Assembly: GCF_009389715.1 (NCBI RefSeq)
Contig: NC_052392.1
Span: 29,586,592 to 29,650,591 of the forward strand
DNA length: 64,000 nt
From: Phoenix dactylifera
Lineage: Eukaryota > Streptophyta > Magnoliopsida > Arecales > Arecaceae
Direction: 5' to 3'
The notes under the pieces were generated by a model. That model was not told the DNA's origin, did no database searches, and saw nothing but the letters and a program-made list of their open reading frames with translations. Shown in pieces: positions 22,992 to 53,553 of this stretch (its first letter is position 1; each line of letters opens with the position of its first letter). The position numbers and the translations under genes are program-made.

Positions 22992-22998
22992 CCAAATC

Positions 22999-24973: not shown

Positions 24974-24982
24974 TTAACTCAC

Positions 24983-26091: not shown

Positions 26092-26289
26092 CCCCGCTAT
26101 AACAAAAAGTCAAAGACCAGTCAATAAATGTACCGGTGATCAATTACGCCTATTAAAGGGGTAATTAATTCCCCACCCTTCAAAAGACCCCGCTATAACA
26201 AAAAGTCCCGGTTGACTGGTCTTAAAATCTTTCGTCAAATATCTTTACCAAGTTTAACTCCCGGTCCTTGAGCCCCTTTTATTTTTTTT

Positions 26290-27480: not shown

Positions 27481-27483
27481 AGA

Positions 27484-28912: not shown

Positions 28913-28970
28913 TGAGTGAGCGACAGTTAGGTTAGTAAGCTTGGTATACAAATAATATAACATTGTGAAC

Positions 28971-30331
28971 TTAACTGTGTGCAGAGAAACCATACCTATG
29001 TGCAGGAAATAGTAAACTGTGTGCACAGAACAGAAAACTGTATTTCGAGGTTAATTAAGTATGTACTATCATTAGTTAAGTGTGTTTCAAGTTTAATCGA
29101 CTATGCGCCATGCTAAGGTAAGATTTGGCTCACAAGAACAACCTATATTAAGTGTCTACCACATCATTGTAATTGATTCGAAATATTCTACAAAAATCAA
29201 ATTGTTTAATTTAACTGTGTGCAGAGAAACCATACTTGTGTGCAGGAAACGGTAAACTATGTGCACAGAACAGAAAATTGTGTTTTGGGGTTAATTAAGT
29301 GTGTGTATTTCAAAAGGGAGAGGTGATTTCGGCCAGAATTTTGGATGCTTTTCTTGGGCATTTCGTGGGAACCTCTCCTCCCCTCATTCCTCCTTCCAGC
29401 CACAAGAGAAAAGGGAGAAAAAGAAAGGGTGGGGTGGCCTTCTTCTTCCTCTTTTAATTAAGTATGTTTCAAGCTTAATCGACTATGCGCTATGCTAGGA
29501 TAAGTCTTGGCTCACAAGAAAAACCTATATTAAGTGTCGATCACATCATTGCAATTGATTCGAAACATTCTACAAAAATCAAATTGTTTAACTTAACTGT
29601 GTGCAGAAAAACCATACCTGTGTGCAGGAAACGGTAAACTGTGTGCACAGAACAGAAAATTGTGTTTTGGGATTAATTAAGTGTGTGTATTAGTTAATTA
29701 AGTTTGTTTCAAGCTTAATCAACTATGCGCCATGCTAGGATAAGTCTTGGCTCACAAGAAAAACCTTTATAAAGTGTCTATTACATCATTGTAATTGATT
29801 CGAAACATTCTACAAAAATCAAATTGTTTAACTTAACTGTGTGCAAAGAAACCATACCTGTGTGCAGGAAACGGTAAACTGTGTGCACAGAACAGAAAAT
29901 TGTATTTTGGGATTAATTAAGTGTGTGTATTAGTTAATTAAGTGTGTTTCAAGCTTAATCGACCATGCGCCATGCTAGGATAAGTCTTGGCTCACAAGAA
30001 AAACCAATATAAAGTGTCTATCACATCATTGTAATTGATTCGAAATATTCTAAAAAATCAAATTGTTTAACTTAACTGTGTGCAGAGAAACCATACCTGT
30101 GTGCAGGTAACGGTAAACTATATGTACAGAACAGAAAATTGTGTTTCGGGGTTAATTAAGTGTGTGTATTAGTTAATTAAGTGTGTTTCAAGCTTAATCG
30201 ACTATGCGTCATGCTAGGATAAGTCTTGGCTCACAAGAGCAACCTATATTAAGTGCCTACCACATCGTTGTAACTGATTCGAAATATTTTACCAAAATCA
30301 GATAGCTTAACTAAACTATGTGTACAAAAAC
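28971..30331. repeat. 240-bp tandem repeat, five units, one with a 142-bp insert
   Basis: Units start TTAACTGTGTGCAGAGAAAC at 28971, 29211, 29593, 29833 and 30072. The second is longer because of a unique insert at about 29310-29452 (contains GGTGATTTCGGCCAGAATTT). The array is cut by the Sirevirus at 30331 and resumes at 53559. Confidence 0.88.
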
Positions 30332-31837
30332 TGTTGCCCAAGGTGACAAGCCAAGAGGGGGGGGGGTGAATTGGTTTCTTTTAAATTTAAACTATCTTAC
30401 TCAAGTCAAATGGATGGTTAGTAAGCTAAAGCAAATCACAACACAAACAATACAAAGTATAGTGGTTCGGTGCTCTCCTTAGCACCTACGTCCACTCCCC
30501 AAACGACCCCTTGGGAATTCACTATAATCTCGCGGATTACAGTTGGATTGTTTTCCGGGCTCACAATCCAAAAACCTTTGTTGGTTTTACGGGCTCACCA
30601 ACGAACCTTTACACTTTGGTTTTCCGGATTCACCAAAAACCTTTGTTGGTTTTACGAGCTCACCAACGAACCTTTACAATTGGTTTTCCGGGTTCACCAA
30701 TCAACCTACTCCGTTGGTTTTCCGGGCTCACCAACCAACCTTTACAAGTTGTTTAACAAATAAAGAAAGAAGATTTAAACTCCTAAATGAGCAAATGAAA
30801 CAATATAAACTACAAAAAAGAGTATAGAAAATATTTATCGCTTTGAAGTGGCTTCTCTCTTCTTTGTCAAGGATACTTCACTCTACAAGGGAGGATGGAG
30901 CTCTTGATGACTCTTTGAATCTGCTCAACCCCTTTCTTTGATTCTTGAATGAAGCACTTGGATGAAGAAGATTAGGGCACTTTTGTTTTCTTGTGTACTC
31001 TTTGATATTGCTTTCAAAAGGTTGTTCTATCTGATGAATAGTGCCACTTTAAATAGTCTCCTACATCCATTGAACAAGCCCCAATGGTTAGAATTCAAAA
31101 ACTAGCCGTTACTGACTTTGGGAAGGACAAAAAGTACATCTGCAGAACTAGCCGTTATGCTTCAGCCCGTGTTTGGGTCGGCTCAACCTGTCCTTGGGTC
31201 GACCCAACTTTCACTTGGGTCGACTCAAACATTCCTTGGGTCGACTCTCTCAGAAAACACAGAAACTTGAAATTCAGCCTTCCTTCCCTTGGGTCGACCC
31301 AACCATTCTTTGGGTCGACTCAAAGTTCACTTGGGTCGACTCAACTTCTTCTTGGGTCGACCCTCTCAGTAATTCCAGAGAACCATTTTCTGTCTTCTTT
31401 TCTGTCTTGCCTTTGGGTCGACCCTCTCAGGGTTTGGGTCGACTCAAGCTTGGGTCGACTCAACTACTTCTTGGGTCGACCCTCTCAGTGAATCCAGAGA
31501 ACCATTGTTCTGTCTTGTTTTGAGGATCTTGATGTTTGGGTCGACTCATGCTTTCCTTGGGTCGACCCAACTCACTGTTCATCTGTGCCATTTATGCAGA
31601 AGTGTGCCAAATGATTTCTTGATGTGCCGGGGTCGACCCAATCATCCTTTGGGTCGACTCAATCCACACTTTGCTGCATCTCAAGGTTAGATTCATTCAA
31701 ATAAACAATGAAATGTATTTATATCAATTTATACAAATATCCTGAGAGTAATAGTCTTATAAATGAAGTATCAATTTAACTTATAACATACTCTAGATAA
31801 TTGCTTGTTAATCATCAAAATAACACTATCATCCTCA
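30332..31837 (-). repeat. Outer Sirevirus 3' LTR
   Basis: Minus start TGAGGATGATAG, end CTTGGGCAACA. U3 holds about fifteen GGGTCGACTC/GGGTCGACCC copies (31174-31663), mostly 21 bp apart, upstream of TATTTAAA (31047-31056). U5 holds a TTTTCCGGGCTCACCAAC minisatellite (30550-30750) and a hairpin-capable TATAGTG...CACTATA pair (30458-30526). Confidence 0.92.
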
Positions 31838-32696: not shown

Positions 32697-33985
32697 CTAG
32701 GGAGACTCTAACGGCTCGGATCTAGTCCTCATCCTCCTAGTGTACGTGGCGAGGGGAGGTCGAGCCTGGTGAGACTGTGTCTGGCGTGGAGCACGACGAG
32801 CTGGATGACTCTGTGCCGAAATCTCTGACTCAGCAGCCTGTGGCACAGATGGTCCATGGGTCTCTCTCTCTCTCCGGAGTGCTCCTATCTGCTGCCTCAG
32901 ATCACTGATCTCAGCAGACATGACGTCCAATCGGGCGTCCAATCGGCTCGTCAGCCCGTCAGTGATAGTCCTCGCCTGAGCTGACATGAGCTCAGTCATC
33001 CTGCTCCAAAACTCATCCGTATCTCTCGGAGGAACGGATGATGATGGTCCAGCCTCTGAAGGTGCAGTAGGATGATCCATATGCTCCTCATCCTCATCCT
33101 CTGGTGCATCTCCCTCTGGTGCCTCACCCTGAATGCCTGCTCCAGTGTGAATCCACTGCCCGTTCACTTTCTTATATCCCATGCGTATAAGTGTCCGTGC
33201 AGTGTATGTGTCAGTATGATGCAGACTCTTGGATGCCTCCTCCTCGAGAGCTAAACCGTGCTGTCGAAAAATCAAGGTGAGTATCATACCATAAGGTAGT
33301 GATACCCTGGAGTTGCACATCACCTTCCTCATCTGTCTCAGTATCATGGCCGGAAGATTTAGGGGAATCCCCTGAATCATACACTCCATCACTGCGATCT
33401 CGCTCTGTGATGAGATCGAATCTCCCGGTCTTTGGAAATAAGATTCTATTTATTATACTGAGCAGTAATCTCATTTCAGCAGTAAGAGAACTAGCTATTA
33501 CCTTCGCGGAAAAGTCGAAGTTCTCATTTTCCATGATCAACTGTAGAGCTCTTTTCCGGAGTGGCTCCTACGCAGGGTAGATGAAGTAGCTCACTCAAGC
33601 TCTCCTCGGAAACTCGAACTCGAACCCCTCGAACTTCCGAAACAAGCCCTCCCATACCAGTTTTGAGGAAGGCATAGAACTCCTGAACCAATCCGGGGTA
33701 GATCATCACGTCTAGGGAGCAAAGATACTCCCAACCTTGCCTTTGGATCCATTCCCTCAACCGAAACCCTTCTTGATCAAAGAACTCGGAATGGATCCTT
33801 CTCCCCGTTGTAACCGGTCTCCCCGCAAATCTTGCAAGTATCACTGAGGGGGAAGGAGGAGGAGGGGCCTCCGCACGTGCCTCACGTCGTGGAGACACGG
33901 TAGATGGCTCCGTAGGTTGCCTTTCCTCCCGTTGGATCCGTGTGACTCTTCCGGATCTCTTGGCTACGGCTCTTTTGGGTCCCAT
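32697..33985 (-). pseudogene. Outer Sirevirus accessory gene (position of env-like ORF), frameshifted
   Basis: Three overlapping frames (33524-33985, 33211-33540, 32697-33392) together match the intact-looking homologue at 38912-40354. Shared signatures are TTGRRIHSEF/TTGRYIDFHF, QGWEYLCSL/QGWEHLCTL, YPGLV, AEMRLLLSI(I/V)NR, LFPKTGRFD, IPLNLP and PYGMI(L/F)TL. The N-terminus (MGPKRAVAKRSGR) is strongly basic. The C-terminus is a predicted coiled coil (MSAEISDLRQQIGALRRER). At least two frameshifts break it. The core resembles the domain of unknown role labelled a putative plant transposon protein. Function unknown. Confidence 0.75.
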
Positions 33986-34105
33986 TTCTCTAAGATCTCA
34001 AGGTAATCTACTGTTTGGAGGAGTTTGGAGGAGTTTGGAGAGTGGGGATTAGAGTATTCAGAAGAGGACAAGGGCAAACAGTGCCCTAACAATGCTCTCG
34101 GGTCC

Positions 34106-34205
34106 CCTTTTAACAGTGAGGTCCCGACGTTGGGTCGACTCAAGATTTTTCTTGGGTCGACTCAACATTGGGTCGACCCTATTCAGGGTTGGGTCGACCC
34201 AAGTG
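34106..34205 (-). promoter_or_regulatory. Putative internal promoter: four GTCGAC palindromes plus TATA-like box
   Basis: GTCGAC cores begin at 34134, 34156, 34172 and 34193 (spacing 22, 16, 21), each within GGGTCGACTC/CC as in this element's LTR. A TTAAAAGG box (34106-34114) follows on the minus strand about 20 bp downstream, and the accessory start codon lies about 125 bp beyond. Confidence 0.5.
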
Positions 34206-34394
34206 CAGAATTTTTTCTTTTCTCTTCCTTTTTGCTTCTAAGAATTTTTCTTGCTTCCAATCCTTATAAACTCTTTATGGGACAATGATACATGAGTAAG
34301 GAATCTCTAGATAACAAATTTAACTCATGTTTCATGGGATTTTAGAAATTAGAAGAATGTATCATGAGACTACTAGCTCCCTTTTTATATTTCT

Positions 34395-36426
34395 TCAATA
34401 AAAAGGATCACATATGCCTAATTCCCTCCTTAGCATGCAGAATCTATCTTTACTCAATGGTTTCGTAAATATGTCGGCTAATTGTTTTTCAGTGCATATA
34501 TGCTCAATACATATATTTCCATTTTGCACATGATCCCTAATAAAATGGTACCTTATTTCTATGTGTTTGGCTTTAGAGTGCTGAACTGGATTTTTAGTAA
34601 GATTGATGGCACTAGTATTATCACACTTAATAGGAATATTATCTAGTTTAACTCCATAGTCCTCTAGTTGTTGCTTAAGCCATAATACTTGAGCACAACA
34701 ACTACCAGCAGCTATATATTCAGCTTCAGCTGTGGACAGTGCCACTGAATCTGCTTTTTGCTAAACCATGATACTAAGTTATTTCCTAAGAATTGACATG
34801 TGCCACTTGTGCTCTTCCTATCTAATTTGCATCCGGCAAAATCAGCATCTGAATACGCAAGCAAATTTAGACAGGAGTCCCTTGAGTACCATAGCCCTAT
34901 ATTGGTAGTTCCTCTTAAATATCTAAGGATTCTCTTAACAGCACTTAAATGTGACTCCTTAGGATCCGATTGGTATCTAGCACATATTCCTACACTAAAT
35001 ACAATGTCGGGTCTACTAGCAGTAAGATAGAGCAAGGATCCAATTAGTCCTCTATAGAGCTTGATATCAATACTCTTCCCTTTTTCATCCTTGTCTAGCT
35101 TGCTAGTGGGATTCATTGGAGTGCCTACTCCCTTATGATTTTCATTCCCAAACTTCTTTAGTATTTCCTTTGTATACTTAGTTTGATGAATGAAAATGCC
35201 TTCTTTAGTTTGTTTGATTTGTAATCCTAGAAAGAAGCTTAGTTCTCCCATCAAACTCATTTCAAATTCTCCATGCATTAAATCAGCAAATTCTTTGCAA
35301 AGAGTATCATTTGTGGCACCAAAGATTATGTCATCTACATATATTTGTACCACTAATAGATTTTTGTCCTTTCTTTTGAGAAATAGAGTTTTATCTACAT
35401 TTCCTCTACTAAAGTCATTATTAAGCAGAAATTTGCTTAGTCGATCATACCAAGCCCTAGGTGCTTGCTTTAATCCATATAATGCCTTATGTAGTTTAAA
35501 GACATGATTTGGCAATTCATGATTCTCAAAACCTGGAGGTTGTTCTATATATACCTCCTCCTCAATAAAACCATTTAAGAATGCACTCTTCACATCCATT
35601 TGATATAATTTGAAATCCATGAAATATGCAAATGCTAGAAGTAATCTAATAGCCTCTAATCTAGCTACAGGAGCAAATGTCTCATCAAAATCTATTCCTT
35701 CTTCTTGATTGTATCCCTTAGCTACAAGTCTAGCCTTATTTCTTATAACTAATCCATTTTCATCTAATTTATTTCTAAATATCCATTTTGTTCCAATTAC
35801 TGAATTATGCTTTGGTCTTTCAGTTAATGTCCATACATTACTTCTTTTGAATTGATTTAATTCTTCTTGCATGGCATTTATCCAGTTAGTATCTTTTTCA
35901 GCTTCTTCATAAGTCTTAGGTTCTAATTGTGAAACGAAAGCAAGATAATCATTTAAATTCCTAAGAGATGATCGAGTTCTTACCCCTTGAGATGGATCAC
36001 CAATGATTAAGTCTTTAGGATGTCCATATGCATACCTCCATTCCTTTGGCAAGTTTTGGGATTGTGGTGGCACGCTATCATCTCCCTTATCTTGATTTGG
36101 CACGTCATCAATATTCAACTTTTCAAAGTCGATAATTCCTGTATCATCATCAACAATATTTTCTTTCCTAGCAGACTCACTATCAGACTCATCAAATATA
36201 ATATTGACTGACTCTTCCACTATTAAGGTTCTTTTATTGAATACTCTGTATGCCCTGCTAGATGTGGAGTATCCTAAGAAGATACCTTCATCTGACTTGG
36301 CATCAAATTTACTTAGATCCTCCTTGCCATTGTTTAAGATGAAACATCTACATCCAAAAACTTTAAGATATTTAGCAGTTGGTTTCTTATTCTTCCAGAG
36401 TTCATAAGGAGTTTTCTTGGTTATAG
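34395..36426 (-). pseudogene. Outer Sirevirus reverse transcriptase-RNase H (3' half of pol)
   Basis: Continues the integrase at 49864 once the nested block is removed; the first codons after the junction read [13 protein letters not shown] motifs: [31 protein letters not shown] and [13 protein letters not shown]. RNase [19 protein letters not shown] and [11 protein letters not shown] single-base deletion near 34745 shifts the frame just before TAEAEY, so the protein is split (34712-36426 and 34395-34745). Confidence 0.9.
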
Positions 36427-36431
36427 GTCGT
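36427..36431. repeat. Left TSD of the inner Sirevirus/TRIM-B block
   Basis: GTCGT, repeated at 49859-49863. The two copies flank the whole 36432-49858 block, not the Sirevirus alone. Confidence 0.85.
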
Positions 36432-38009
36432 TGTTGCCCAGAGATGGTCACCCAAGAGGGGGGGTGAATTGGGTGTTTTAAAACTTTTGTCTAATTAAAA
36501 AATAAAACACACAAATGTATGAGCTAAAGCTAAAATAAAGCTATGAAGACAAACAATCACAAACACAAGCTTTTATAGTGGTTTGGAGCCTCCACTGCTC
36601 CTACATCCACTCCCCAAAGCACCTTTGGAAATTTCCACTATAATCCACGATTACAGTACGGTAGTTTTGCGAGTTCACTACCCAACTCGTTATTTTACAC
36701 CGGGCTAACAACAAACCCTATAACCCCCAATTTCACTTAGGCTTGGGACGCCTTTTCCTTGTTCCAAGTCCCTTAACTGGAACAAGCACCACAATGAAAG
36801 GTTTTACAAAGGATTGAAAAGCTCTAAATAAGCAAATATGACAATGATAAACAATAGAACCCGGAAGAATCCTTTTGCCGTTGGAAGCGTGGAAAATGAT
36901 GATTCTTCCGATGTGGATCGCGTAAGCTTGAGTATGAGCTTTGAGTCCCGAGCGGAAGAGAGTGGTTGAGCTTGAAATCACTTGGGAAGCTTGAAAGCAC
37001 TTGATTTCTTCACTTGAATGCACTCACTCCCTTGAACTTCTCTCTCTTGCTTCTCTCTTAAATGATCTAGCTTTGGGTTGGTGAAGAGTTGTTGAGAAGC
37101 ACTTAAGAGGTCCCTTTTATAGCCCAAAAAGCAAATATAGCTGTTAGAGATAAAGCAAAAGAGATTTGAAATTCAAACCAAACCTGCAAAAGTTGTCAGT
37201 CGCGTCCCAGGCGCTCCGGAGACGTCTCAGCTTCAACGCGAGACGTCTCGGCTGTATAAATTTACTTTTCACTTTGTTTGGGGTCGACTCGGCACTTTAC
37301 GGGGACGACTCTGGAATTGTATCGTTTGAATCCTTGTTTTTCTGTTTTTCTGAGAGGGTCGTCTCTGTACTTTACGGGGACGTCTCGGCTTGTTTGCACT
37401 TTTTGCATGGGAACGACTCCGCTGCCTTGGGGACGACTCCGCTGTTATAACTCCGAAAAACATGTCTTCTGGAATTCTCTGAGAGAGTCGACTCCGCTCT
37501 TTCAGGGGACGTCTCCGCTGCCTTATCACCGAAAATGACATCCTCTGAAAAACCCTGAGAGAGCCGACTCCGCTACCTCGGGGACGACTCGGAAAGTCTG
37601 CTTTTTACTTGCGGGGACGACTCCGCGTACGGTGGGGACGTCTCGCGCATATCTCTTGAAAACTGCCTTTCTGCCGCCACTGAGAGAGTCGACTCCGCTA
37701 CTGAGAGAGTCGACTCCGCTATCGCGGGGACGACTCGGCAGGTGCCGGGGACGTCTCCAGACGTGCCAGTTCTTCCTGTTTGTGCCAGAGACGTCTCTGA
37801 GACAACCCGGAGACGTCTCGGCTATCCCTGAACTTTTTCTTTCATCTCAAAAATTCTTCAATAAGTCCTTAAAAAATCATGGGAACTTGCCTAGACATTT
37901 CTTAACAATATTCTTAATAAAATACATGAAATCCTCAATTAAATTGTTAAGATAAATGAAATTATACTCTAGTGTTTTGTATTCATCAAAATCCATTAGG
38001 GGGTCAACA
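36432..38009 (-). repeat. Inner Sirevirus 3' LTR
   Basis: Minus start TGTTGACCCCC, end TCTCTGGGCAACA. U3 (37217-37822) carries GAGACGTCTC, GGGGACGACTC and GAGAGTCGACTC units. TATAAAAG at 37114-37121 follows. The U5 region has the conserved TATAGTGG...CACTATAA pair (about 36574-36652). Confidence 0.93.
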
Positions 38010-38625
38010 ATCTCCCCCTTTTTGATGATGACAAAACACTGAGTATATGCAAAATTCGAATTTTAAACATATACACAGTATTTGATCAGATGTACAAGCA
38101 TAATGTTTTGATTAGAGCTAGATACAGTGTGCATAATTCAAAATAGTCAATTTTCAGTTCTATCATTATGCATAAGATTGATCTTTATAGCTCTTAAGCA
38201 ATTTTAGCATATCAACTGAATTTGAATTAAGTTAAAATTTGAAAGCTAAGTTCTTTTTGACTCCCCCTTTCTTTTCTAGAAGGGCAATTATCTAAAAGCC
38301 AATATTTTTCAATTTTATCTTTTCTAATTCAACTTTGGAGTATGAATTTCGTATTTTGCATTCCAATGTATCCAATATCCATATTGGTTCTACTCTTGGT
38401 TCTACTCCCCCTTCTATATATCTACTCCCCCTATTTGTCATCAACAATGAAGGGGACAAATTATCCTTCTATGAACTACTCAAGGAGATTCAAGTTGTGC
38501 TCCCCCTGTCCAAGTTATTTCTATTAAAGAATTTTAGTCATTCATATCACTCCCCCTTTGTTTTGGAATTCATTTCAGACTCCTCTTTTTGTTTAACATA
38601 GTTATCACAAGATGTGCTCCCCCTG
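38010..38625 (-). promoter_or_regulatory. Seven polypurine-tract-like motifs of the inner Sirevirus
   Basis: AGGGGGAG(T/C/A)-type motifs (minus strand) occur near 38012, 38262, 38405, 38426, 38502, 38551 and 38613. The first, AAAAAGGGGGAGA, adjoins the LTR and is the likely functional tract. Confidence 0.75.
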
Positions 38626-38911
38626 TGTCATATGCATGGATAAGTTGTGTTGAATTTGAATACTTAAGGTATGTTATGAGATTTTTATGGCACATCACAA
38701 GAAACACATACACAGTCACAGAATCACATACACAGTAGCACATACACAAGGTTTCAAAAGAAATTGTATTCATGTATCATTGTAAACCTTTGAAGTCAGT
38801 ACATAGTTAAAAGAAAAAATCATTACAAGTATTGATTTCTACTACAAAAAGTGTTTCAAAATAGCCTAGGGTATACAAAAAGAAGATCCCTAGATGTCTA
38901 CAAAAAGTCCC

Positions 38912-40354
38912 CTATCGGCGACGTTGCTCATAAGCCCTACAAGCTGCATCTATAAATGCATTGATTGAATCCATTAGGGTCTTGAACTGATCTCCCTGTG
39001 ACTTATGGAAGGCTGCCACGAGTGCTTCAAATTCTATGGTTGCCATTTCAATTCTTCCTCTAAGTTGGGCAACCAAGGTGCCCACATTTCCTCCTGGGCT
39101 TGTCAACTCTTTAAGATTCTTTGAAATGGTCTTCAAGCTGTCCTTGAGCTCAATTGATCTGATTGTTTGGGTGGCACCCACACCAACTATTTCTTGCGTT
39201 GTAGCTTCAATTTGAGCTCTAATTTCCTTCAGCTCTTGTAGAAGCCCTTCATGTGAAGCTCTGATGGGGGCCAACTCAGTAGAGATCATGGATCTCATTT
39301 CCTCCCTCATCTGCTGGCAAATGACAGATGCTAAGGTACGCATCTAGTCTTCTGATAGGAAGGAGGGCCCACTGACTGGAGGAGGTGGTGGCATAGATGT
39401 GGAAGGTCCAGCTGAGCTGGAGGGTATATCAGGAAAATCCATGTGGCTGGGTGGAGGAGAGTGGTGGTCAGACTCCTGATGTGGGATCTCAGGCTCTAGG
39501 GTTTGAGCTTTTCTTTTTGGTACCTTGACCCAAGACCCATCTACCTTTTGAAACTCCATTCTTCGCATTGTGCCCTCATTATAGTAGTCGGTGTTTCTCA
39601 AGGGTTTTGCAGGTTCATTTTCGGGAATGTGAACATTAAAGTATTTAAATACTAGGGTAAATATCATGCCATAGGGTATACTAAACCTAGAATACCTATG
39701 ACATAGAGCAATGTAGTTTAACATGAGTCTAGGGAGGTTTAGAGGAATCCCTAGTAGGATATGGTGCATGATAACTAAATCTCGCTCCAAAACAAAATCG
39801 AAGCGACCGGTTTTAGGAAACAAGACCCGGTTGACAATACTTAAAAGTAATCTCATCTCAGCATTTAGGTCTTGTGAGTTCACTACATCAAGAGGGCCGC
39901 AGTCCTCTCGTCCTAAAAGTAAGTTTAGGGCTATTTCCCTTTGGGGATGTGAGGTTGGAGCCTCACCGTCCTTAGGGATTTGCAAAACAGTGGATAAGAT
40001 GTCCTCATTAATTTCTACTAATGTCCCCCGGACATATGCAGTGTACCCTAAGTCCCCTAAAGCCATATTACTAAACATTTCTCTAACAAGGCCGGGGTAG
40101 GTCGAGGTATTGAGGGTACAAAGGTGCTCCCACCCTTGGGCTCGGAGTCTCTCTCCAATAGAGAACCCCTCATTATCTAGAAAATGAAAATCTATGTACC
40201 TCCCGGTTGTCACTGTGCGATTTGCACAGGAAATGGTTGTGGTCGGCGGAGCAACCGGAGGAGACGGCGCGGAAGGTTCTTCCCTCCGTTCCTCACCGTC
40301 GGCCGCTGCCCTAGGACGCCTCCCACCAGTCCTCCTAGCTCTTTTGGGTGCCAT
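38912..40354 (-). CDS. Inner Sirevirus accessory protein (one in-frame TAG)
   Basis: Frame 39344-40354 (336 codons) ends in TAG and continues in the same frame as 38912-39343 (143 codons), starting ATG right after the stop. The homologous outer gene has no stop there, so this is probably one protein with a recent nonsense change. N-terminus MAPKRARRTGGRRPRAA is basic and nuclear-signal-like. The core (residues 50-250) carries TTGRYIDFHFLDNEGF, QGWEHLCTL, AEMRLLLSIVNRVLFPKTG and SIPYGMIFTLVF. The C-terminal part (ICQQMREEMRSMIS, LKTISKNLKEL) is coiled-coil-like. It sits where Sireviruses may carry an env-like ORF, but I see no signal peptide or clear membrane anchor, so an envelope role is not supported. 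Function unknown. Confidence 0.75.
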
Positions 40355-40483
40355 TGAATGGAAATCCTAGGGAAATGAGGAGAAAGAGGCTAGGGTTTGT
40401 GTTGGAGAAAAATGGAGGCTAGGGTTTTTGTTTTTGTCGGGGATGAAAGGGAAAGCTCGGGTCGGCTCGAGCTGTTTCGATCT

Positions 40484-40585
40484 ATTTTAAAAACCCTCGT
40501 TCGGTCCCCGAGACGTCTCCGCGACTAAGGCGAGACGTCTCGCCTGGGGGGACGTCTCTGCGATTTGCCAGAGACGTCTCCGGCA
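40484..40585 (-). promoter_or_regulatory. Putative internal promoter: four GACGTC palindromes plus TATA-like box
   Basis: GACGTC cores begin at 40512, 40534, 40551 and 40573 (spacing 22, 17, 22), in the element's own GAGACGTCTC context. A TTTTTAAAATAG box (40484-40493) follows about 20 bp downstream on the minus strand. The accessory start codon (40354) is about 130 bp further. The layout copies that of the outer element at 34106-34205 although the core sequence differs. Confidence 0.55.
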
Positions 40586-40953
40586 CTGAAAAATTTCAGA
40601 CTGAATTCTATCTTTTTCCAATTTTTTTATTTAATCACCCTAATCAACATGATTTCTTTTGATAAACACAGAGTGAATTTGTTTGTGATCCTCCCCCTTA
40701 ATAATACATCCTATAATAATTTGATAATGATTTTTGAATTATTAATATTGAAATGAGAAATGTTTGACCAAATTTCGAATACCTATGAAATAGGCTCTGA
40801 AAATATCTCCATGAAGAGTCCAAGGGAGGGTAACCATCCTCCGGAAAGTCAAACAGTTCGTCATTTAGCTTAGATGAATTCATGCTTTCACTTATGTTTA
40901 CCTTGAGGTGGATTACTAGTTTGAGTAGCAAAGCAATGCAATACAAGTTCAAT

Positions 40954-43900
40954 TTATTTGCTAGGATCATACAAGCTCAAAGCATTCCTTAAGAAGTTGA
41001 ATCTATCTTTACAAAGGGGCTTTGTAAAGATATCGGCCAATTGATTTTCAGTACATACATATTCAATCATCACATCATTTTTCAGCACATGATCCCTAAT
41101 AAAATGATGCCTAATCTCTATATGCTTTGACTTAGAGTGTTGGACAGGATTTTTTGTTAAATTAATTGCACTTGTATTATCATATTTAATTGGTATATTA
41201 TCCATTTTGATACCGAAGTCTTCAAGTTGTTGCTTAATCCAAAGAACTTGGGCACAACAGCTTCCAGCTGCAATGTACTCAGCTTCAGCTGTGGACAAGG
41301 CAACTGAATTTTGTTTCTTGCTAAACCAGGAAACCAAATTAGCACCTAAGAATTGACATGTGCCACTTGTGCTTTTTCTGTCGAGTTTGCACCCGGCAAA
41401 ATCAGCATCGGAATAAGCAATTAAATTTATGTCAGATTGTTTAGAATACCATAAGCCTACATTAGATGTCCCTACCAGATATCTAAAAATTCTTTTAACA
41501 GCTTGCAAGTGTGATTCCTTAGGACATGCTTGGTATCTAGCACACATACAAACACTGAATAATATATCTGGTCTACTAGCAGTAAGGTAAAGTAATGAGC
41601 CTATCATACCTCTGTACAATTTGCAGTCTATATTTTTACCTTTTTCATCTTTGTCAAGCTTGCAACTTGAGCCCATGGGTGTGCTGATTTCCTTTGCATC
41701 CTTCATCTTGAATTTTTCCAACATTTCCTTGATGTATTTGGACTGACTGATGAAGATGCCTTCCTCTGATTGTTTTATTTGTAGCCCAAGGAAGAAGTTG
41801 AGCTCACCCATCATGCTCATTTCAAATTCTCCCTGCATAAGCTTGGCAAACTCTTGACAAAGACTATCGTTAGTAGCACCAAAAATTATATCATCCACAT
41901 AAATTTGCACAAGCAATAAGTCATTTCCTTTTCTTTTAATGAAGAGGGTTTTGTCTACATTTCCTCTCTTAAATTTATTTTCAATTAGAAAATTACTTAA
42001 TCTTTCATACCATGCCCTAGGAGCTTGCTTAAGTCCATACAATGCTTTATGCAATTTATAAACGTAATCTGGATGTAAGTGGTTTTCAAAGCCTGGAGGT
42101 TGTCCTACATAAACTTCCTCCATTATATAACCATTTAAAAATGCACTTTTTACATCCATTTGATAGAGTTTAAAATCCATGAAGCATGCATATGCCAAAA
42201 GTAGTCTAATAGCTTCTAATCTAGCAACAGGAGCAAAAGTTTCATCAAAGTCTATTCTTTCCTCCTGATTATAACCTTTGGCAACTAGTCTAGCTTTGTT
42301 TCTTATGACTATTCCATCTTCATCTAGTTTATTTCTATACACCCACTTGGTGCCTATAATTGTAACATTAGGGGGTCTTTTCATTAGAGTCCAAACTTCA
42401 TTTCTTTCAAATTGGTTTAATTCCTCTTGCATAGCATTCATCCAATTATCATCTTTTTCGGCTTCTTCTAGTGATTTAGGTTCTATTTGTGAAACGAAAG
42501 CAAGATAATTACTGGTATTTCTTAGAGAGGATCTTGTCCTTACCCCTTGCGAAGGATCACCAAGGATTAGATCCCTTGAATGACCATGTGCATACCTCCA
42601 TTCCTTAGGAAAATCTTGATTTCTTGATGGAGGTTGATCTTCTTCATCTTGCTGAATTGTATCTTCTTTGATCTCATCCTCATGTTGTTTGTCTTGTATG
42701 GAGAATTCCTTCATTCGGTCTTCAAGTATACCTGCATCACCATCTTCTTCTTTTCTAGAAGAATCTCCGTTAGCTTCATCAAAAACAACATGAATGGATT
42801 CTTCAACAACAAGAGTTCTCTTGTTGAAGACCCTGTATGCTCTACTAGATGAGGAATAACCTAAGAAGATCCCCTCATATGATTTAGCACTAAATTTGCT
42901 TAGATTGTCCTTTCCATTATTTAAAATAAAGCATCGACAACCGAAAACATGAAAATAGCTTATATTTGGTTTCTTACCTTTTATTAACTCATAAGGTGTT
43001 TTCTTCAAGATGGATCTAACTAATGCACGGTTTAAAATGTGACATGCAGTATTTATTGCTTCAGCCCAAAAATATTTTGGTAGATCCGATTCGCACAACA
43101 TGGTACGAGCCATATCTGCTAGTGTGCGATTCTTCCTTTCTACCACCCCATTTTGTTGGGGTGTCCTAGGTGCCGAGAAATTGTGATTGATACCATTTTC
43201 GTCACAAAACTTTTCAAAGTGCTGATTTTCAAACTCGGTACCATGATCACTCCTAATTGCTTTTAGTTTAAGATTGAGTTCATTCGAAACTCTATTATGA
43301 AACTTGATAAAAGCGGAAAAGGACTCATCTTTATGTGCAAGAAATGAAACCCATGTAAAACGTGAAAAATCATCAACAATTACAAGACCAAATTTCTTAC
43401 CCCCTAGACTAGCAGTTCTAGTGGGTCCAAACAAATCCATGTGGATTAGTTCTAAGGGTTTTGTTGTTGAGACTATGTTTTTAGACTTGAAAGAGCTTCT
43501 CGTTTGTTTCCCTAATTGACATGCAGCACAAATTTTGTTCTTTTCAAAATCTATCTTTGGTAGTCATTTGACTAGATCTTTTGTAATCAATTTAGAAATT
43601 AAATCCATGCTAGCATGTCCTAACCTACGATGCCATAACCAACTAGTCTCATTGACTTTGGGACTCATGGCTACAAGACATTGGCCATCCTTCATGGTGA
43701 GATCATCAAGATCAACCATGTAAACATTTCCATGCCTATGTCCTGTGAGTATGATCTCATTGTCAATTGGACTACTAATTATGCATAGTGATGATTCAAA
43801 TGACACTTTAAATCCCTTGTCACAAAATTGACTTATACTTAAGAGATTATGTTTTAGTCCATTAACTAACAATACATTGTCAATAAAAGAGGAGGGTGAA

Positions 43901-44088
43901 ATGGAGATTTTACCAACACCAATGATTTGACCTTTAGCATTGTCTCCAAATGTGACTACTCCTCCTTCTTTTGATTTCAAAGTGACGAAGAGACTCTTGT
44001 CACCGGTCATATGCCTTGAGCAACCACTATCAAGATACCACATTCTCCTTTTATTCCCGGCTGCAAGGCATACCTGCAAAATGATCAT
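40954..44088 (-). CDS. Inner Sirevirus protease-integrase-RT-RNase H (one in-frame TGA)
   Basis: Two same-frame pieces, 43564-44088 and 40954-43440, are separated by one TGA at 43564-43566; the 41 codons between continue the protein. Protease: [14 protein letters not shown]. Integrase zinc finger: [10 protein letters not shown] then CAACQLGK, with the TGA falling between the HH and CC halves. Integrase core: [25 protein letters not shown] and [62 protein letters not shown] and [12 protein letters not shown]. RNase [28 protein letters not shown] and [17 protein letters not shown]. The start ATG overlaps the gag stop (ATGA), but the likelier expression route is splicing (see 44074-44816). Confidence 0.92.
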
Positions 44089-44816
44089 GTGAAGCTCTTA
44101 GGTACCCAAGTTTTCTTGGGTCCTTCGTGGTTAGTGTAGTTGGTTCCCTTAGGCACCCATACTTTAGTTATGTTTTTAGCTTTCACCAATGTACTCTTGT
44201 TAGTTTGGATCTTTCTTTGAATACAAGAGTAGGCTTTATGTCCATTCTTTCCGCAATGAAAGCATGTAGGTTTTTCAGTTTTTACATCTTTTGCTTTTAC
44301 AAAGAAATTCTTTAGATACTTTTGTTGTTTGTTAGTTTTATATCCTAATCCGGCTTTATTAAAAACAGCTCTTTGATTTGAAAGAATAAGATTTAATTTT
44401 TCAGAGCTTTGTGTGAATTTTTCAACAATTGGTTTGTATTTATGTACCTCATTCTTAAGATTTAAATTTTCTTTAACTAGTTCTTCCTTATCCGTTTTAA
44501 GGGATTCAACATTTTGTGCAAGTGAGGTATTATTATCGAGTAGAGATTTTACTTTTAGATTTAATTCCTTAATTAGTGTTTTTCCCGTTTTATTTTCAAT
44601 GCTAAGTTTTAAGTTTCTATTTTCTAGGTCAATGGTGTTAATATTTTTAACGCTCTTCTTCTCAATCAATAGGTTTTCAATATCTTCTTTCAGTTTTTGA
44701 TTGGAGGCTTTTAACTCTTTATTCTTTGCTCCTAACATACTACAATCACCCATAAGTTCTTGAAAAGCTTCATACAATTCTTCTAAAGTAAAATTTATAG
44801 TTGAGTTTTGACATAC
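44074..44816 (-). other. Candidate 743-bp intron spanning the gag 3' part
   Basis: The donor is GAG|GTATGTCA and the acceptor ATTTTGCAG|GTATGCC, both good plant sites, and both at phase 0. Removal joins Gag residue 355 (DDE) to [10 protein letters not shown] of the protease frame, deleting the Gag coiled coil, second zinc knuckle and stop codon. The outer element reads NDDEVCLTADKVEKRW with no extra DNA at exactly this point. Splicing is inferred and not shown. Confidence 0.6.
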
Positions 44817-45881
44817 CTCGTCGTCTTCGAATGCCATGAAGCACAAATTGGCGGTCTCTTCCTTCTCTTCCTCGGAGGATGATGTGTCACTATCATCCCA
44901 TGTTGCCTTCAATGCCTTCTTCTTCTTCTTTCCAAAAAACTTCTTTTGTTGAGGGCATTCGGAACGAATGTGTCCCGGTCTCTTGCAATCGTAGCATATG
45001 ATTGGGTCTCTTTCTTTTTCTTTTTCTTTTTCCCAATCATTTCTCCCTCCAAACTTTTTCCTTGGAAAGGGTTTCTTTTTCCTCATGAATTTTTTAAACT
45101 TCCTAACTATCAAACCCAAGTCCTCGTCCTCACTTTCTTCCTCACTCTCACTACTTTCTTCTTCACACATACTCGAAGTAGCCTTGAGTGCAATTGTCTT
45201 CTTCTTTGGCAAATCATCTTCATGTTGCTTCATCGTGAGCTCATGCGTCATCAATGAGCCCAAAAGTTGTTCTAGCCCCAAGGTGTTGAGGTCTTTGGCT
45301 TCTACGATCGCCGTGACCTTTGCTTCCCATGCTTTCGGCAAAGACCTGAGTATTTTACTTACAAGTTCCGGATTAGTATAAGATTTACCCAAACTCTTTA
45401 GACCATTAATTATATCGGTAAAGCGTGTAAACATGCATGTGATGGTTTCATTGGGTTCCATCTTAAACAACTCATATTTGTGAACTAGAATGTTCACTTT
45501 GGACTCTTTGACTTGATTTGTACCCTCGTGGGTAACTTCAAGCCTATCCCATATTTCCTTAGCGGAACTACATGTGGAGACTCTATTAAACTCATTTACA
45601 TCTAGAGCACAAAATAATGAGTTCATGGCTCTTGAATTGAGTTGAGCCATCCTATCATCATTCTCATCCCAATCCACCTCTGGTTTGGGAACTTGAATGC
45701 CATTAACCATGTGTGATGGTTCTTGTGGTCCCTTGACTATAACCCTCCACAAGGCATAGTCTTGTGCTTGAATGAAGATTCTCATTCTAGTCTTCCAATA
45801 GGTATAATTTGTCCCATTGAAGAGTGGAGGTCTATTGGTTGCTTGCCCCTCAGCAGGAACATTGTTAAAGGGGGTTGCCAT
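44085..45881 (-). CDS. Inner Sirevirus Gag with coiled coil and two zinc knuckles
   Basis: 598 codons. N-terminal Ty1-copia Gag region (RPPLFNGTNYTYWKTRMRIF at about 18-37; WDRLEVTHEGTNQVKESKVN at 111-130). An acidic stretch at 240-255 is followed by basic KKKPFPRKKF. Zinc knuckle 1 is CYDCKRPGHIRSEC (297-309). Residues 370-520 form a long heptad-rich coiled coil (EDIENLLIEKKSVKNI, KSLLDNNTSLAQNVESLKTD). Zinc knuckle 2 is CFHCGKNGHKAYSC at about 545. It forms the particle shell and binds the genomic RNA. The coiled coil plus second knuckle correspond exactly to the candidate intron, so the spliced product would contain a shorter Gag fused to Pol. Confidence 0.92.
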   Translation of the reverse strand: MATPFNNVPAEGQATNRPPLFNGTNYTYWKTRMRIFIQAQDYALWRVIVKGPQEPSHMVNGIQVPKPEVDWDENDDRMAQLNSRAMNSLFCALDVNEFNRVSTCSSAKEIWDRLEVTHEGTNQVKESKVNILVHKYELFKMEPNETITCMFTRFTDIINGLKSLGKSYTNPELVSKILRSLPKAWEAKVTAIVEAKDLNTLGLEQLLGSLMTHELTMKQHEDDLPKKKTIALKATSSMCEEESSESEEESEDEDLGLIVRKFKKFMRKKKPFPRKKFGGRNDWEKEKEKERDPIICYDCKRPGHIRSECPQQKKFFGKKKKKALKATWDDSDTSSSEEEKEETANLCFMAFEDDEVCQNSTINFTLEELYEAFQELMGDCSMLGAKNKELKASNQKLKEDIENLLIEKKSVKNINTIDLENRNLKLSIENKTGKTLIKELNLKVKSLLDNNTSLAQNVESLKTDKEELVKENLNLKNEVHKYKPIVEKFTQSSEKLNLILSNQRAVFNKAGLGYKTNKQQKYLKNFFVKAKDVKTEKPTCFHCGKNGHKAYSCIQRKIQTNKSTLVKAKNITKVWVPKGTNYTNHEGPKKTWVPKSFT

Positions 45882-45933
45882 CTAGATCTTTGGCTAAGAC
45901 GGTTAGGTCTTTCAAGAAATACACAGAGCACCT

Positions 45934-45945
45934 GCTCTGATACCA
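45934..45945 (-). promoter_or_regulatory. Inner Sirevirus primer-binding site
   Basis: TGGTATCAGAGC (initiator tRNA-Met type), two bases after the 5' LTR. Confidence 0.92.
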
Positions 45946-45947
45946 CT

Positions 45948-47505
45948 TGTTGCCCAGAGATGGTCACCCAAGAGGGGGGTGAATTGGGTGTTTTAAAACT
46001 TTTATCTAATTAAAAAATAAAACACACAAATGTATGAGCTAAAGCTAAAATAAAGCTATGAAGACAAACAATCGCAAACACAAGCTTTTATAGTGGTTCG
46101 GAGCCTCCACTGCTCCTACATCCACTCCCCAAAGCACCTTTGGGAATTTCCACTATAATCCACGATTACAGTACGGTAGTTTTGCGAGTTCACTACCCAA
46201 CTCGTTGTTTTACACCGGGCTAACAACAAACCCTATAACCCCCAATTTCACTTAGGCTTGGGACGCCTTTCCCTTGTTCCAAGTCCCTTAACTGGAACAA
46301 GCACCACAATGAAAGGTTTTACAAAGGATTGAAAAGCTCTAAATAAGCAAATATGACAATGATAAACAATAGAACCCGGAAGAATCCTTTTGCCGTTGGA
46401 AGCGTGGGAAATGATGATTCTTCCGATGTGGATCGCGTAAGCTTGAGTATGAGCTTTGAGTCCCGAGCGGAAGAGAGTGGTTGAGCTTGAAATCACTTGG
46501 GAAGCTTGAAAGCACTTGATTTCTTCACTTGAATGCACTCACTCCCTTGAACTTCTCTCTCTTGCTTCTCTCTTAAATGATCTAGCTTTGGGTTGGTGAA
46601 GAGTTGTTGAGAAGCACTTAAGAGGTCCCTTTTATAGCCCAAAAAGCAAATATAGCCGTTAGAGATAAAGTAAAAGAGATTTGAAATTCAAACCAAACCT
46701 GCAAAAGTTGTCAGTCGCGTCCCAGGCGCTCCGGAGACGTCTCCGCTTCAACGCGAGACGTCTCGGCTGTATAAATTTACTTTTCACTTTGTTTGGGGTC
46801 GACTCGGCACTTTACGGGGACGACTCTGAAATTGTATCGTTTGAATCCTTATTTTTCTGTTTTTCTGAGAGGGTCGTCTCTGTACTTTACGGGGACGTCT
46901 CGGCTTGTTTGCACTTTTTGCATGGGGACGACTCCGCTGTTATAACTCCGAAAAACATGTCTTCTGGAATTCTCTGAGAGAGTCGACTCCGCTCTTTCAG
47001 AGGGACGTCTCCGCTGCCTTATCACCGAAAATGACATCCTCTGGAAAACCCTGAGAGAGCCGACTCCGCTACCTCGGGGACGACTCGGGAAGTCTGCTTT
47101 TTACTTGCGGGGACGACTCCGCGTACGGTGGGGACGTCTCGCGCATATCTCTTGAAAACTGCCTTTCTGCCGCCACTGAGAGAGTCGACTCCGTTACTGA
47201 GAGAGTCGACTCCGCTATCGCGGGGACGACTCGGCAGGTGCCGGGGACGTCTCCAGACGTGCCAGTTCTTCCTGTTTGTGCCAGAGACGTCTCTGAGACA
47301 ACCCGGAGACGTCTCAGCTGTCCCTGAACTTTTTCTTTCATCTCAAAAATTCTTCAATAAGTCCTTAAAAAATCATGGGAACTTGCCTAGACATTTCTTA
47401 ACAATATTCTTAATAAAATACATGAAATCCTCAATTAAATTGTTAAGATAAATGGAATTATACTCTAGTGTTTTGTATTCATCAAAATCCATTAGGGGGT
47501 CAACA
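45948..47505 (-). repeat. Inner Sirevirus 5' LTR
   Basis: 1558 bp, minus start TGTTGACCCCC. TATAAAAG at 46629-46636; palindrome array 46730-47325 upstream of it in U3. Lacks one unit of the array present in the partner LTR near 37400-37445. Confidence 0.93.
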
Positions 47506-49858
47506 GAAGACAGGGCTTCGCCAGTGGGTTTAGGGACCCCCTAGTGGTATAACCCACCCTACTCCTCCAGCGCATCCACGTTGGCAGGCGGTGGGACTGA
47601 CTCGGCCCTCCAGGCCTCCGCCAACGTTGACTCGGCCTGTTGCCCAGATAGACAACCCAAGAGGGGGGGTGAATTGGGTTTTAAAATAATTTGGGTATTT
47701 AAAACGATGTGGATAAGTAATTAAAAATAATGTAAGTTATTTAATTAATTACTATGTGCTGTGAGTGATATGAAAGGAAGAAGAATAGAGACACGCAATC
47801 ACAAACACCAAGTTTTATAGTGGTTCGGAGCTAACCCTTGCTCCTACGTCCACTCCCCAAGTCTCACTTGGGAATTCACTATAACCCCCTTGGATTACAG
47901 CCGGTTGTTTTCCAAGCTCACAACCAAACTTGTTGTTTTACGAGCTCACAACGAACTCGGTCGATTTTTCCAGGCTCACCAACTAGAACCACCCCGATTA
48001 TTTTCTCGGAATCACAATCGAACCCTTACACACGTTGGTTTTACACTCGGCTCACCAACCAACCTCAATCCCCTTGATTCAATCCCCCGATTGAACCAAG
48101 CAAATACAATGTGTAAATAAAAAGAAGAAACAGAAAAATACAGCTTCTCAAAAGCAGATAAAAGACAATATGAACAATAAATGAAGTTAAGAAGCCTCAA
48201 ACGCTTTTAGGTTGGAGAAGAGGAATGGCTTCTTAAACTTCTGGTCTCCTCTTGAGTGAGTAGTCGACTTGAATGCAGGAGGAGAAGGCTTTAATTGTTG
48301 GGAAGATGTAGGTGGATGCAGTAAATGCAGATCTTCCTCTTTTTCGTTGAAGAACACGTTGCAAAGCTTGAATGCTTGATTAGTTGGAGTGGAATGGTTC
48401 TTCCCTGCCTTGCTACAGTCTTCTGTGGCTATTTAAACCAACCCCCACGGAAACTAGCCGTTAGAGAGCTTTTTCTGCCCGTTCTGCACACTCTGCGCAG
48501 CCTGACAATGTGTCCGTTGGTGGGTTAGAGTCGACTCGCGCGATCAGGAGTCAACTCGGCTGTAGCGGGAGTCGACTCAAGCTTTTCCGGAGTCGACTCG
48601 GCAACTGTTCCAAATTTGAATTAAAGTTGCCTTCACGACTGGGAGTCGACTCGTCTTGACCTGGAGTCGACTCGCCAACTTCTGGAGCTGACTTGGCAAT
48701 TTCGGAGTCGGCTCATCCACTGAAGTCCGTGGATTCAATTTTGAATTTGATCCACTCGAGTCGACTCGACTGTCCTGGGAGTCGACTCGAATCTCAGAGC
48801 CCGAACTCCCGATTCTCTGTCTTTTGGCTCGTCCAGTCTTGGAGTCGACTCGAACTTCCTCGGAGTCGACTCGGCTCTCAGTTTCCGAAACTTGGTCTTC
48901 TGCCTTTTTGATGTGAAGCTGTCTTGGAGTCGACTCGAGCTGTCTGGGAGTCGACTTGAATCTCAGAGGCAGTAACTTGGTCTTCTATCTGTTGATGGTC
49001 GCGGAGTCTTGGAGTCGACTCGCATATTGCGGGAGTCGACTCGAATCTCAGAGTCCAAAAATTGCTCTCTGTCTTTTTCTTGTGTTCCTCTGAGAGTCGA
49101 CTCTTACTATCCTGGAGTCGACTCGGTGAACATCGGAGTCGACTCGCGCACTTTGGGAGTCGACTCGTTGACAGGTTCTGAGTTGAAGCTTTCTGTTCTT
49201 CTGTCTGTTCTCAGTCGGAGTCGACTCGTACTGATCTGGAGTCGACTCGAGCCCGTGCCAGTGAACTTGATACGCTTGGAGTCGACTCGTGATACTCTGG
49301 AGTCGACTCGAGTCTCAGACTTTGGTTCAAGCTGACTTCTTAACTTATCCAAAAATTATGAACCAAATCTTGAGACACTTAGACAAGATTTTCACTGAAA
49401 CACTTAATTGAATTCATTAGTAAACAAGAAATATACTCAATTGCTTTGATCTCATCAAAATCAAATAGGGTTTTAATCAATCACTCCACATGGCCCCTCA
49501 GGCCTCCGCCAACAATCCCCCCCCCAACGTGATGCCTGGGTTTCGAACTCGAGACCTATGGCTCTGATACCAATTGTCAGGATCAAGCGCTACCATTATA
49601 CCAAAACCCGCAGGTGTTAGTGAAGGCGCAACTTTATTTCCTTAAACTAGCGCAGGGGCCCATAGCGCCACGAGTCGACTCCGACCAAGCCTCGCCCAAC
49701 TCCGGACTCCGACAGGGCCTCGCCAGTGGGTTCAGGGACCCCCTAGTGGTATAACCCACCCTACTCCTCCAGCGCATCCACGTTGGCAGGCGGCGGGACT
49801 GACTCGGCCCTCCAGGCCTCCGCCAACGTTGACTCGGCCCCTCAGGCCTCCGCCAACA
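47506..49858 (-). mobile_element. TRIM-B, 5'-complete and truncated at the Sirevirus junction
   Basis: On the minus strand: LTR 49575-49858 (TGTTGGCGGAGGCC ... TTGATCCTGACA), then a 60-bp core 49515-49574 with PBS TGGTATCAGAGC (49561-49572) and purine tract TTGGGGGGGGGAT, then a second LTR beginning at 49514. That LTR is interrupted by the solo LTR 47638-49490, continues at 47637 and stops at 47506, where the inner Sirevirus 5' LTR begins. GTCGT follows the outer end (49859-49863). Confidence 0.82.
47638..49490 (-). mobile_element. Solo LTR of a third Sirevirus family (family C)
   Basis: 1853 bp starting TGTTGCCCAGATAGAC and ending ATCAATCACTCCACA in plus orientation. It shares the U5 landmarks of the two other Sireviruses (TATAGTGGTTCGGAGC, CTACGTCCACTCCCCAA). 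A GAGTCGACTC array lies at 48529-49312 upstream of a TTTAAATAG box near 48430. TSD CGGCC (47633-47637) versus TGGCC (49491-49495): one CpG-type transition. Confidence 0.82.
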
Positions 49859-49863
49859 GTCGT

Positions 49864-50453
49864 ATTAAAACTCGATTTAGAATATGGCAAGCAGTGTTTA
49901 TAGCTTCAGCTCAAAAGTACTTTGGAAGATTTGACTCACACAACATTGTGCGTGCCATTTCTGCCAATGTCCTATTTTTCCTTTCAACAACCCCATTTTG
50001 TTGAGGCGTTCTAGGTGCTGAAAATTGATGTGATACTCCATTTTTAGTGCAAAATTCTTCAAAGTATTGATTTTCAAATTCCGTACCATGATCACTTCGA
50101 ATTGCTACTAAGGTGAGTTTCTTTTCATTTATGATATTATTATATAGTTTCAGAAATTCTGAAAATGCTTCATTCTTATGTGCCAAAAATGAAACCCATG
50201 TATACCTTGAAAAATCATCAACAATAACTAGTCCATATTTCTTCCCTCCTAGACTTGCAGTTCTAGTAGGTCCAAATAAATCCATGTGTATGAGTTCAAA
50301 TGGTCTAGTTGTTGATACTACATTCTTCGATTTGAAAGATGATTTAGTTTGTTTTCCCAATGAACATGGTCCACATATTTTGTCCTTTTCAAAGATCAAT
50401 TTTGGCACATCTTTTATTAATTCCTTCTTAACTAGTTTTGATATTAATTCCAT
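49864..50453 (-). pseudogene. Outer Sirevirus integrase (5' half of pol)
   Basis: Contains [49 protein letters not shown] and [23 protein letters not shown]-to-TGA change at 49911 stops the frame after LPKYF. Beyond it the sequence continues ([12 protein letters not shown]) to the GTCGT junction at 49859. A long A-run near 50500 has shifted the frame relative to the protease upstream. Confidence 0.88.
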
Positions 50454-52076: not shown

Positions 52077-53553
52077 GGTGACAAGCCAAGAGGGAGGGTG
52101 AATTGGTTTCTTTTAAATTTAAACTATCTTACTCAAGTCAAATGGATGGTTAGTAAGCTAAAGCAAATCACAACACAAACAACACAAAGTATAGTGGTTC
52201 GGTGCTCTCCTTAGCACCTACGTCCACTCCCCAAGCGACCCCTTGGGAATTCACTATAATCTCGCGGATTACAGTTGGATTGTTTTCCGGGCTCACAATC
52301 CAAAAACCTTTGTTGGTTTTACGGGCTCACCAACGAACCTTTACACTTTGGTTTTCCGGGTTCACCAAAAACCTTTGTTGGTTTTACGGGCTCACCAACG
52401 AACCTTTACAATTGGTTTTCCGGGTTCACCAATCAACCTACTCCGTTGGTTTTCCGGGCTCACCAACCAACCTTTACAAGTTGTTTAACAAATAAAGAAA
52501 GAAGATTTAAACTCCTAAATGAGCAAATGAAACAATATAAACTACAAAGAAGAGTATAGAAAATATTTATCGCTTTGAAGTGGCTTCTCTCTTCTTTGTC
52601 AAGGATGCTTCACTCTACAAGGGAGGATGGAGCTCTTGATGACTCTTTGAATCTGCTGAACCCCTTTTTTGATTCTTGAATGAAGCACTTGGATGAAGAA
52701 GATTAGGGCACTTTTGTTTTCTTGTGTACTCTTTGATATTGCTTTCAAAAAGGTTGTTCTATCTGATGAATAGTGCCACTTTAAATAGTCTCCTACATCC
52801 ATTGAACAAGCCCCAATGCGTTAGAATTCAAAAAACTAGCTGTTACTGACTTTGGGAAGGATAAAAAGTACATCTGCAGAACTAGCCGTTATGCTTCAGC
52901 CCGTGTTTGGGGTCGGCTCAACCTGTCCTTGGGTCGACTCAAACATTCCTTGGGTCGATTCTCTCAGAAAACACAGAAACTTGAAATTCAGCCTTCCTTC
53001 CCTTGGGTCGACCCAACCATTCTTTTGGGTCGACTCAAAGTTCACTTGGGTCGACTCAACTTCTTCTTGGGTCGACCCTCTCAGTAATTCCAGAGAACCA
53101 TTTTCTGTCTTCTTTTCTGTCTTGCCTTTGGGTCGACCCTCTCAGGGTTTGGGGTCGACTCAAGCTTGGGTCGACTCAACTACTTCTTGGGTCGACCCTC
53201 TCAGTGAATCCAGAGAACCATTGTTCTGTCTTGTTTTGAGGATCTTGATGTTTGGGTCGACTCATGCTTTCCTTGGGTCGACCCAACTCACTGTTCATCT
53301 ATGCCATTTATGCAGAAGTGTGCCAAATGATTTCTTGATGTGCTGGGGTCGACCCAATCATCCTTTGGGTCGACTCAATCCACACTTTGCTGCATCTCAA
53401 GGTTAGATTCATTCAAATAAACAATGAAATGTATCTATATCAATTTATACAAATATTCTGAGAGTAATAGTCTTATAAATGAAGTATCAATTTAACTTAT
53501 AACATACTCTAGATAATTGCTTGTTAATCATCAAAATAACACTATCATCCTCA
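52077..53553 (-). repeat. Outer Sirevirus 5' LTR
   Basis: 1477 bp. Lacks one palindrome unit of about 21-28 bp present in the 3' LTR near 31200. TATTTAAA box at 52780-52789 downstream of the GTCGAC array (52912-53380). Followed by AAAAC. Confidence 0.92.

Follow-up and report, generated by a model that had tools for sequence, protein, structure and literature searches.

Why does a retrotransposon carry a cluster of palindromic boxes between its pol gene and the accessory gene that follows, and what might bind there? The question is raised by two nested Sireviruses, here called inner and outer, in a 64,000-nt stretch of the Phoenix dactylifera genome (NC_052392.1, 29,586,592-29,650,591; assembly GCF_009389715.1), hereafter the window, to which all positions refer. 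Statements on DNA cover the three Sireviruses of the window, including two pol-accessory linkers. At slightly below even odds (probability about 0.47), we propose that the linker cluster is the accessory gene's copy of a family-specific control array of the element, bound by the accessory product (domain family PF20167) and serving both anti-silencing and autoregulation. The linkers and accessory genes comprise the following features:

40512..40578, minus strand: inner linker cluster, four GACGTC repeated motifs (40512, 40534, 40551, 40573); 4 sites with the matrix trained on long terminal repeat (LTR) motifs
34134..34198, minus strand: outer linker cluster, four GTCGAC repeated motifs (34134, 34156, 34172, 34193); 4 sites with the LTR-trained matrix
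40482..40493, minus strand: inner linker TATA-like box, sequence TTTTTAAAATAG, by resemblance only
34106..34113, minus strand: outer linker TATA-like box, sequence TTAAAAGG, by resemblance only
39344..40354, minus strand: inner accessory (env-like) open reading frame (ORF), 336 amino acids, PF20167, predicted VANC21-like fold
33524..33985, minus strand: N-terminal piece of the broken outer accessory gene; PF20167 match (E 2.9e-06) short of the curated threshold
32697..33392, minus strand: C-terminal piece of the outer accessory gene; weak PF20167 match (E 0.00083)

All eight core starts lay where a sequence-only reading of this DNA had placed them, as did its gaps of 22/17/22 bp (inner) and, in window order, 22/16/21 bp (outer); in gene direction, on the minus strand, the core-to-core gaps read 22/17/22 and 21/16/22 bp. 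Cores of the form G(A/T)CG(A/T)C numbered four in the inner linker versus a mean of 0.20 and a maximum of 4 in 300 dinucleotide shuffles, and four in the outer linker versus a mean of 0.13 and a maximum of 2. The linkers measure 599 bp (inner) and 726 bp (outer), and the cluster layout is kept between them, yet a blastn comparison of the sequence with itself lists no linker-to-linker match there. Because the middle gap of 16/17 bp corresponds to ~1.5-1.6 helical turns at 10.5 bp per turn, boxes 1-2 and 3-4 form two in-phase pairs on different faces; this spacing rules out the even phasing of all four boxes on one DNA face that had been suggested.

Downstream of the last core, the TATA-like box starts after 18 bp (inner) or 20 bp (outer). 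The expected order of box and then accessory ATG held in both elements, at distances of 139 bp and 128 bp instead of the ~130 and ~125 bp given earlier. No ATG occurs between box and accessory start in either the inner (133 nt examined) or the outer leader (128 nt examined), versus 0.94 and 1.55 expected; the earlier parts of these linkers hold 6 and 13. The first ATG after the box is thus the accessory start in both elements, a layout compatible with the second promoter proposed from the sequence, for which the ATG-free leader offers what may be counted as mild support.

The same kind of motif forms much longer arrays in the LTRs:

37221..37817, minus strand: inner 3' LTR array, 18 G(A/T)CG(A/T)C motifs, with TATAAAAGGG downstream at 37121
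46736..47313, minus strand: inner 5' LTR array, 18 motifs
31198..31658, minus strand: outer 3' LTR array, 15 GTCGAC motifs, holding a 21/16/21 module (31417, 31438, 31454, 31475)
52933..53374, minus strand: outer 5' LTR array, 13 motifs, holding a 22/16/21 module (53132, 53154, 53170, 53191)
48530..49307, minus strand: third Sirevirus LTR array, 21 GTCGAC-cored motifs, mostly GAGTCGACTC

The module in the outer 5' LTR repeats the gaps of the outer linker cluster in window order. It had been claimed that the linker core changes together with the LTR motif of each element. For the outer element this stood, with GTCGAC in 15/15 cores of the 3' LTR, but the inner 3' LTR proved mixed (8 of 18 GACGTC, 5 GTCGTC, 4 GTCGAC and 1 GACGAC). 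The correspondence emerged instead at the level of the flanked 16-base motif, where the linker motifs track their own LTR: 8/8 scored best with the matrix of their own element, by a margin of at least 9.8 bits. Matrices were trained on the 15 outer 3' LTR, 18 inner 3' LTR and 21 third-LTR motifs, so that matches in the 3' LTRs and the third LTR arise partly by construction, while the 5' LTR and linker motifs lie outside the training data. With a threshold 4 bits below its weakest training motif, the outer matrix found 35 sites in the 64-kb window, of which 16 fell in the 3' LTR, 15 in the 5' LTR, 4 in the linker and 0 elsewhere. The inner matrix placed 20, 19 and 4 of its 66 window sites in its own LTRs and linker, and the others in the third LTR region (20), the outer 5' LTR (1) and, weakly, elsewhere (2). 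For the third matrix, 23 of 26 sites lay in its own region, one in each inner LTR and one in the outer 5' LTR. As the earlier reading held, the boxes resemble protein-binding sites that match the LTR array of their own element.

Spacing within the arrays was assessed on one LTR per element (3/5 arrays), using random placement with a minimum gap of 12 bp. Exactly 21 bp separated neighbors in 27/51 gaps of the three LTR arrays, versus a random mean of 1.4 and a maximum of 7 in 5,000 runs. The centers of these 27 spacers are only 32-37% alike, which makes simple slippage of a 21-bp unit unlikely. The 22 longer gaps that remain once those of 20, 21 and 22 bp are dropped are suggestive of helical phasing (Rayleigh p ~0.0013 at 10.5 bp; the period that fits best is 10.95), with a p value uncorrected for the 85-bp tandem units present within the third array. 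LTR motif flanks share the same orientation in 53/54 cases, to which shared ancestry of units could contribute; among linker motifs, 3/8 are clearly in the same orientation.

Arrays of this type have precedents. Bousios et al. (2010) described palindromic repeated motifs (RMs) in 13 Sireviruses, with extra linker copies in all nine that carry the env-like gene ENV; 77/79 linker motifs were upstream of ENV, and none occurred in the linker of the four ENV-less elements (PMC2829016). An RM is defined there as a family-specific palindrome with at least eight copies per element, located in the LTR and, when ENV is present, upstream of ENV (PMC2829016). Our elements share this arrangement, including boxes before the LTR TATA box, with 15 and 18 motifs in the 3' LTRs and four per linker. 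They differ in the core, G(A/T)CG(A/T)C (GACGTC, GTCGAC, GTCGTC or GACGAC) in place of the reported CGG-CCG signature, which is absent here; Tnd-1 likewise lacks CGG-CCG in the original RM table, so that the signature is not universal (PMC2829016). The linker cluster is therefore a new instance of a known Sirevirus feature with a different core. An internal promoter before ENV is plausible but an old idea, discussed in the same study and credited there to Peterson-Burch and Voytas (2002) (PMC2829016). What we add is the 21-bp spacing, the orientation, the matrix-based match between LTR and linker and a candidate binder; a search of the main text of Bousios et al. for spacing words turned up nothing on the distance between motifs or on helical phase (PMC2829016).

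The candidate binder is the accessory protein itself. It changes faster than pol (38-44% versus 73% identity), has a basic N terminus and is predicted to contain a VANC21-like domain. The inner protein has 336 amino acids against 489 in its closest relative (P0001), and longer relatives have a C-terminal helical (coiled-coil-like) part. A strong hydrophobic segment, looked for under the envelope reading of the gene, was absent by Kyte-Doolittle analysis (19-residue maxima 1.18-1.44 in seven proteins; no dedicated transmembrane predictor was run), and the best match in a viral structure library reached a probability of 0.08. Experimental proof of function for plant env-like genes is lacking so far according to PMC2829016 and PMC3414828. 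In Athila, a 3' additional ORF with predicted nuclear localization shows partial similarity to Transposase_32 (PF20167), pointing to the same accessory family in copia and gypsy elements; Athila differs in being a Ty3/gypsy element, and the passages of that source describe no motif array (PMC11728184). Whether the extra ORFs of Tork and Athila modulate their own epigenetic landscape was left open in a 2026 paper (PMC12844716).

The closest functional parallel is VANC21, which binds short same-orientation motif arrays in noncoding DNA of the transposon family to which it belongs, removing methylation, with protein and motif co-diverging in Arabidopsis VANDAL elements (PMC5735166). Shared with our case are an element-encoded protein, dense, oriented and family-specific noncoding motifs, co-divergence and, by prediction, the VANC21 fold (PMC5735166). 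VANDAL, however, is a DNA transposon with the 9-mer motif YAGTATTAY and demonstrated demethylation (PMC5735166), while the Sirevirus case is known here from sequence and a predicted fold. Sequence similarity between VANC and the Sirevirus accessory protein was not detected: DUF1985 and DUF287 were absent among the 17 Pfam families listed for 17 members (E up to 10), VANC21 was not among the PDB profile matches (E up to 10), and two alignment-guided protein searches gained only PF20167 relatives or Pfam-less fragments, with no DUF1985/VANC link. We therefore do not class the accessory protein as a VANC member but only as one that may work alike. No VANC-Sirevirus accessory connection appeared in the literature listings (20 of 45 papers in one of them) and passages covered, a scope with most subscription papers outside it, or in the passages of PMC13317346, one of the two listed papers in which both names occur.

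Given the same anatomy as VANC, with noncoding family-specific arrays, a fast-changing protein and a predicted fold, we propose that the accessory protein binds both arrays. Beyond the observed motif identity, confinement to LTRs and linker, spacing and gene family, and beyond the predicted fold, the binding, anti-silencing, internal transcript and autoregulation that we infer would operate as follows. The LTR promoter carries a long array of oriented CG-centered motifs, roughly half of which lie exactly two helical turns from the next, and a four-site short version stands directly upstream of the TATA-like box and accessory gene. The likeliest binder would be this gene's own PF20167 product, which, on binding both arrays, would shield the LTR promoter and that of the accessory gene from silencing by the host and would raise its own synthesis. 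The part worth pursuing is the plausible kinship in action of the accessory protein with VANC. The wider claim, that the 'envelope-like' gene of these Sireviruses is no envelope gene and instead encodes a VANC-like, anti-silencing, DNA-binding protein co-evolving with phased LTR and own-promoter arrays, a VANC-type system in LTR retrotransposons, is tentative. If true, a DNA-binding anti-silencing role would account for the fast env-like change, the family-specific LTR motifs and the clusters upstream of ENV.

The motif data would be equally expected if a host transcription factor bound the LTR and linker motifs and drove both promoters, leaving the accessory protein unrelated. Comparison of RMs with known plant sites gave mainly stress-related ones, in line with such an enhancer, and the persistence of LTR motifs in the four ENV-less elements fits a host factor as well as it fits accessory protein acting in trans (PMC2829016). 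Bousios et al., however, found no common site for one factor (PMC2829016), and a single host factor would not predict a motif that differs among three Sireviruses of one window; the predicted fold match to VANC21 would then be a coincidence. We consider a host enhancer unlikely. The self-bound array faces two points that weigh against it: six ENV-bearing elements lack boxes, so that the pairing is not universal, and ENV of SIRE1 is produced by stop-codon suppression (PMC2829016).

The SIRE1 case favors the LTR transcript as the source of the accessory protein, through splicing or read-through, with the cluster kept for chromatin or other use, as does the splicing reported for barley Bagy2 (PMC7264820). 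Splicing stays a rival for the inner element, where a splice-acceptor-like site (CTTTCTCCTCATTTCCCTAG|G, 13/14 pyrimidines) lies 12 nt before the accessory ATG; in the outer linker, none of the four best-scoring acceptor candidates is near the ATG. Simple read-through is at odds with linker lengths of 599 and 726 bp, and the LTR-matched motifs upstream of the gene would be left without explanation, which makes an LTR-only origin improbable. The sequence-only reading took such LTR-driven transcription to be the norm for these elements, a rule that fails for maize Grande, whose accessory gene23 has its own promoter, albeit antisense and for a different gene (PMC7264820). Least probable, and by our estimate a long shot, are palindromes arising by tandem duplication and acting mainly as small-RNA targets. 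The 85-bp units of the third array and the palindromes of maize Sirevirus LTRs, which are small-RNA mapping hot spots (PMC5311732), agree with this origin, while the divergent spacer centers at exact length and the linker layout kept without a blastn match speak against it.

Assignment of the host elements rests on several features. Both nested Sireviruses lie on the minus strand, with the polypurine signature, primer-binding site (PBS) and C-rich LTR ends present. The Sirevirus signals, a polypurine tract (PPT) AGGGGGAG before the 3' LTR and the PBS TATCAGAGC, are seen in both complete elements as AAAAAGGGGGAGATTG and, after the 5' LTR, TGGTATCAGAGC. A copia-type gag and an RVT_2 pol, as in the Ty1/copia SIRE lineage, occur alongside the PF20167 domain, and domain matches delimit part of the inner pol:

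40954..43440, minus strand: inner pol part (integrase, RVT_2)

LTR pairs are 98.6% (inner; 1,515/1,537 ungapped columns) and 99.0% identical (outer; 1,462/1,477), or 97.5% and 97.0% by blastn over slightly longer stretches. The 5-base flanks of the inner element at 36432 and 47505 are mismatched (TCTTC versus ACGAC in gene direction), and its ends may thus stem from recombination instead of simple insertion. Its leader contains, at 40379-40432, two telobox-like words AAACCCTAG within a 29-bp imperfect repeat; this word is common in plant 5' leaders. Rfam gave 0 matches in 33900-49900. Protein-guided scans of viral contigs and exact polypurine-signature scans recovered no Sirevirus elsewhere, and the nine polypurine-signature loci (seven on genome contigs, two viral) had no tblastn match to the inner pol or accessory protein.

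The third Sirevirus LTR is located between the inner 5' LTR and the remainder of the outer element. Its region (47506-49839) is bounded by a 129-bp direct repeat (47509-47637, 49711-49839) and contains PBS-like and PPT-like sequence near 49500-49600; the LTR is possibly inserted in a small element resembling a terminal-repeat retrotransposon in miniature (TRIM). ARAGORN detected no tRNA in this region. Beside the outer 3' LTR, 27478-30322 is satellite-like and comprises 240-bp units (29454-30322) as well as 21-bp sub-repeats; its consensus units are free of the cores that mark the LTR motifs. Further away, 16144-18139 and 22980-24975 are probable Ty3/gypsy LTRs, 99.7% identical and enclosing an open gag-pol of 1,533 amino acids; this element is a young insertion. 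Tandem repeats of 290 bp come next, at 24983-26094.
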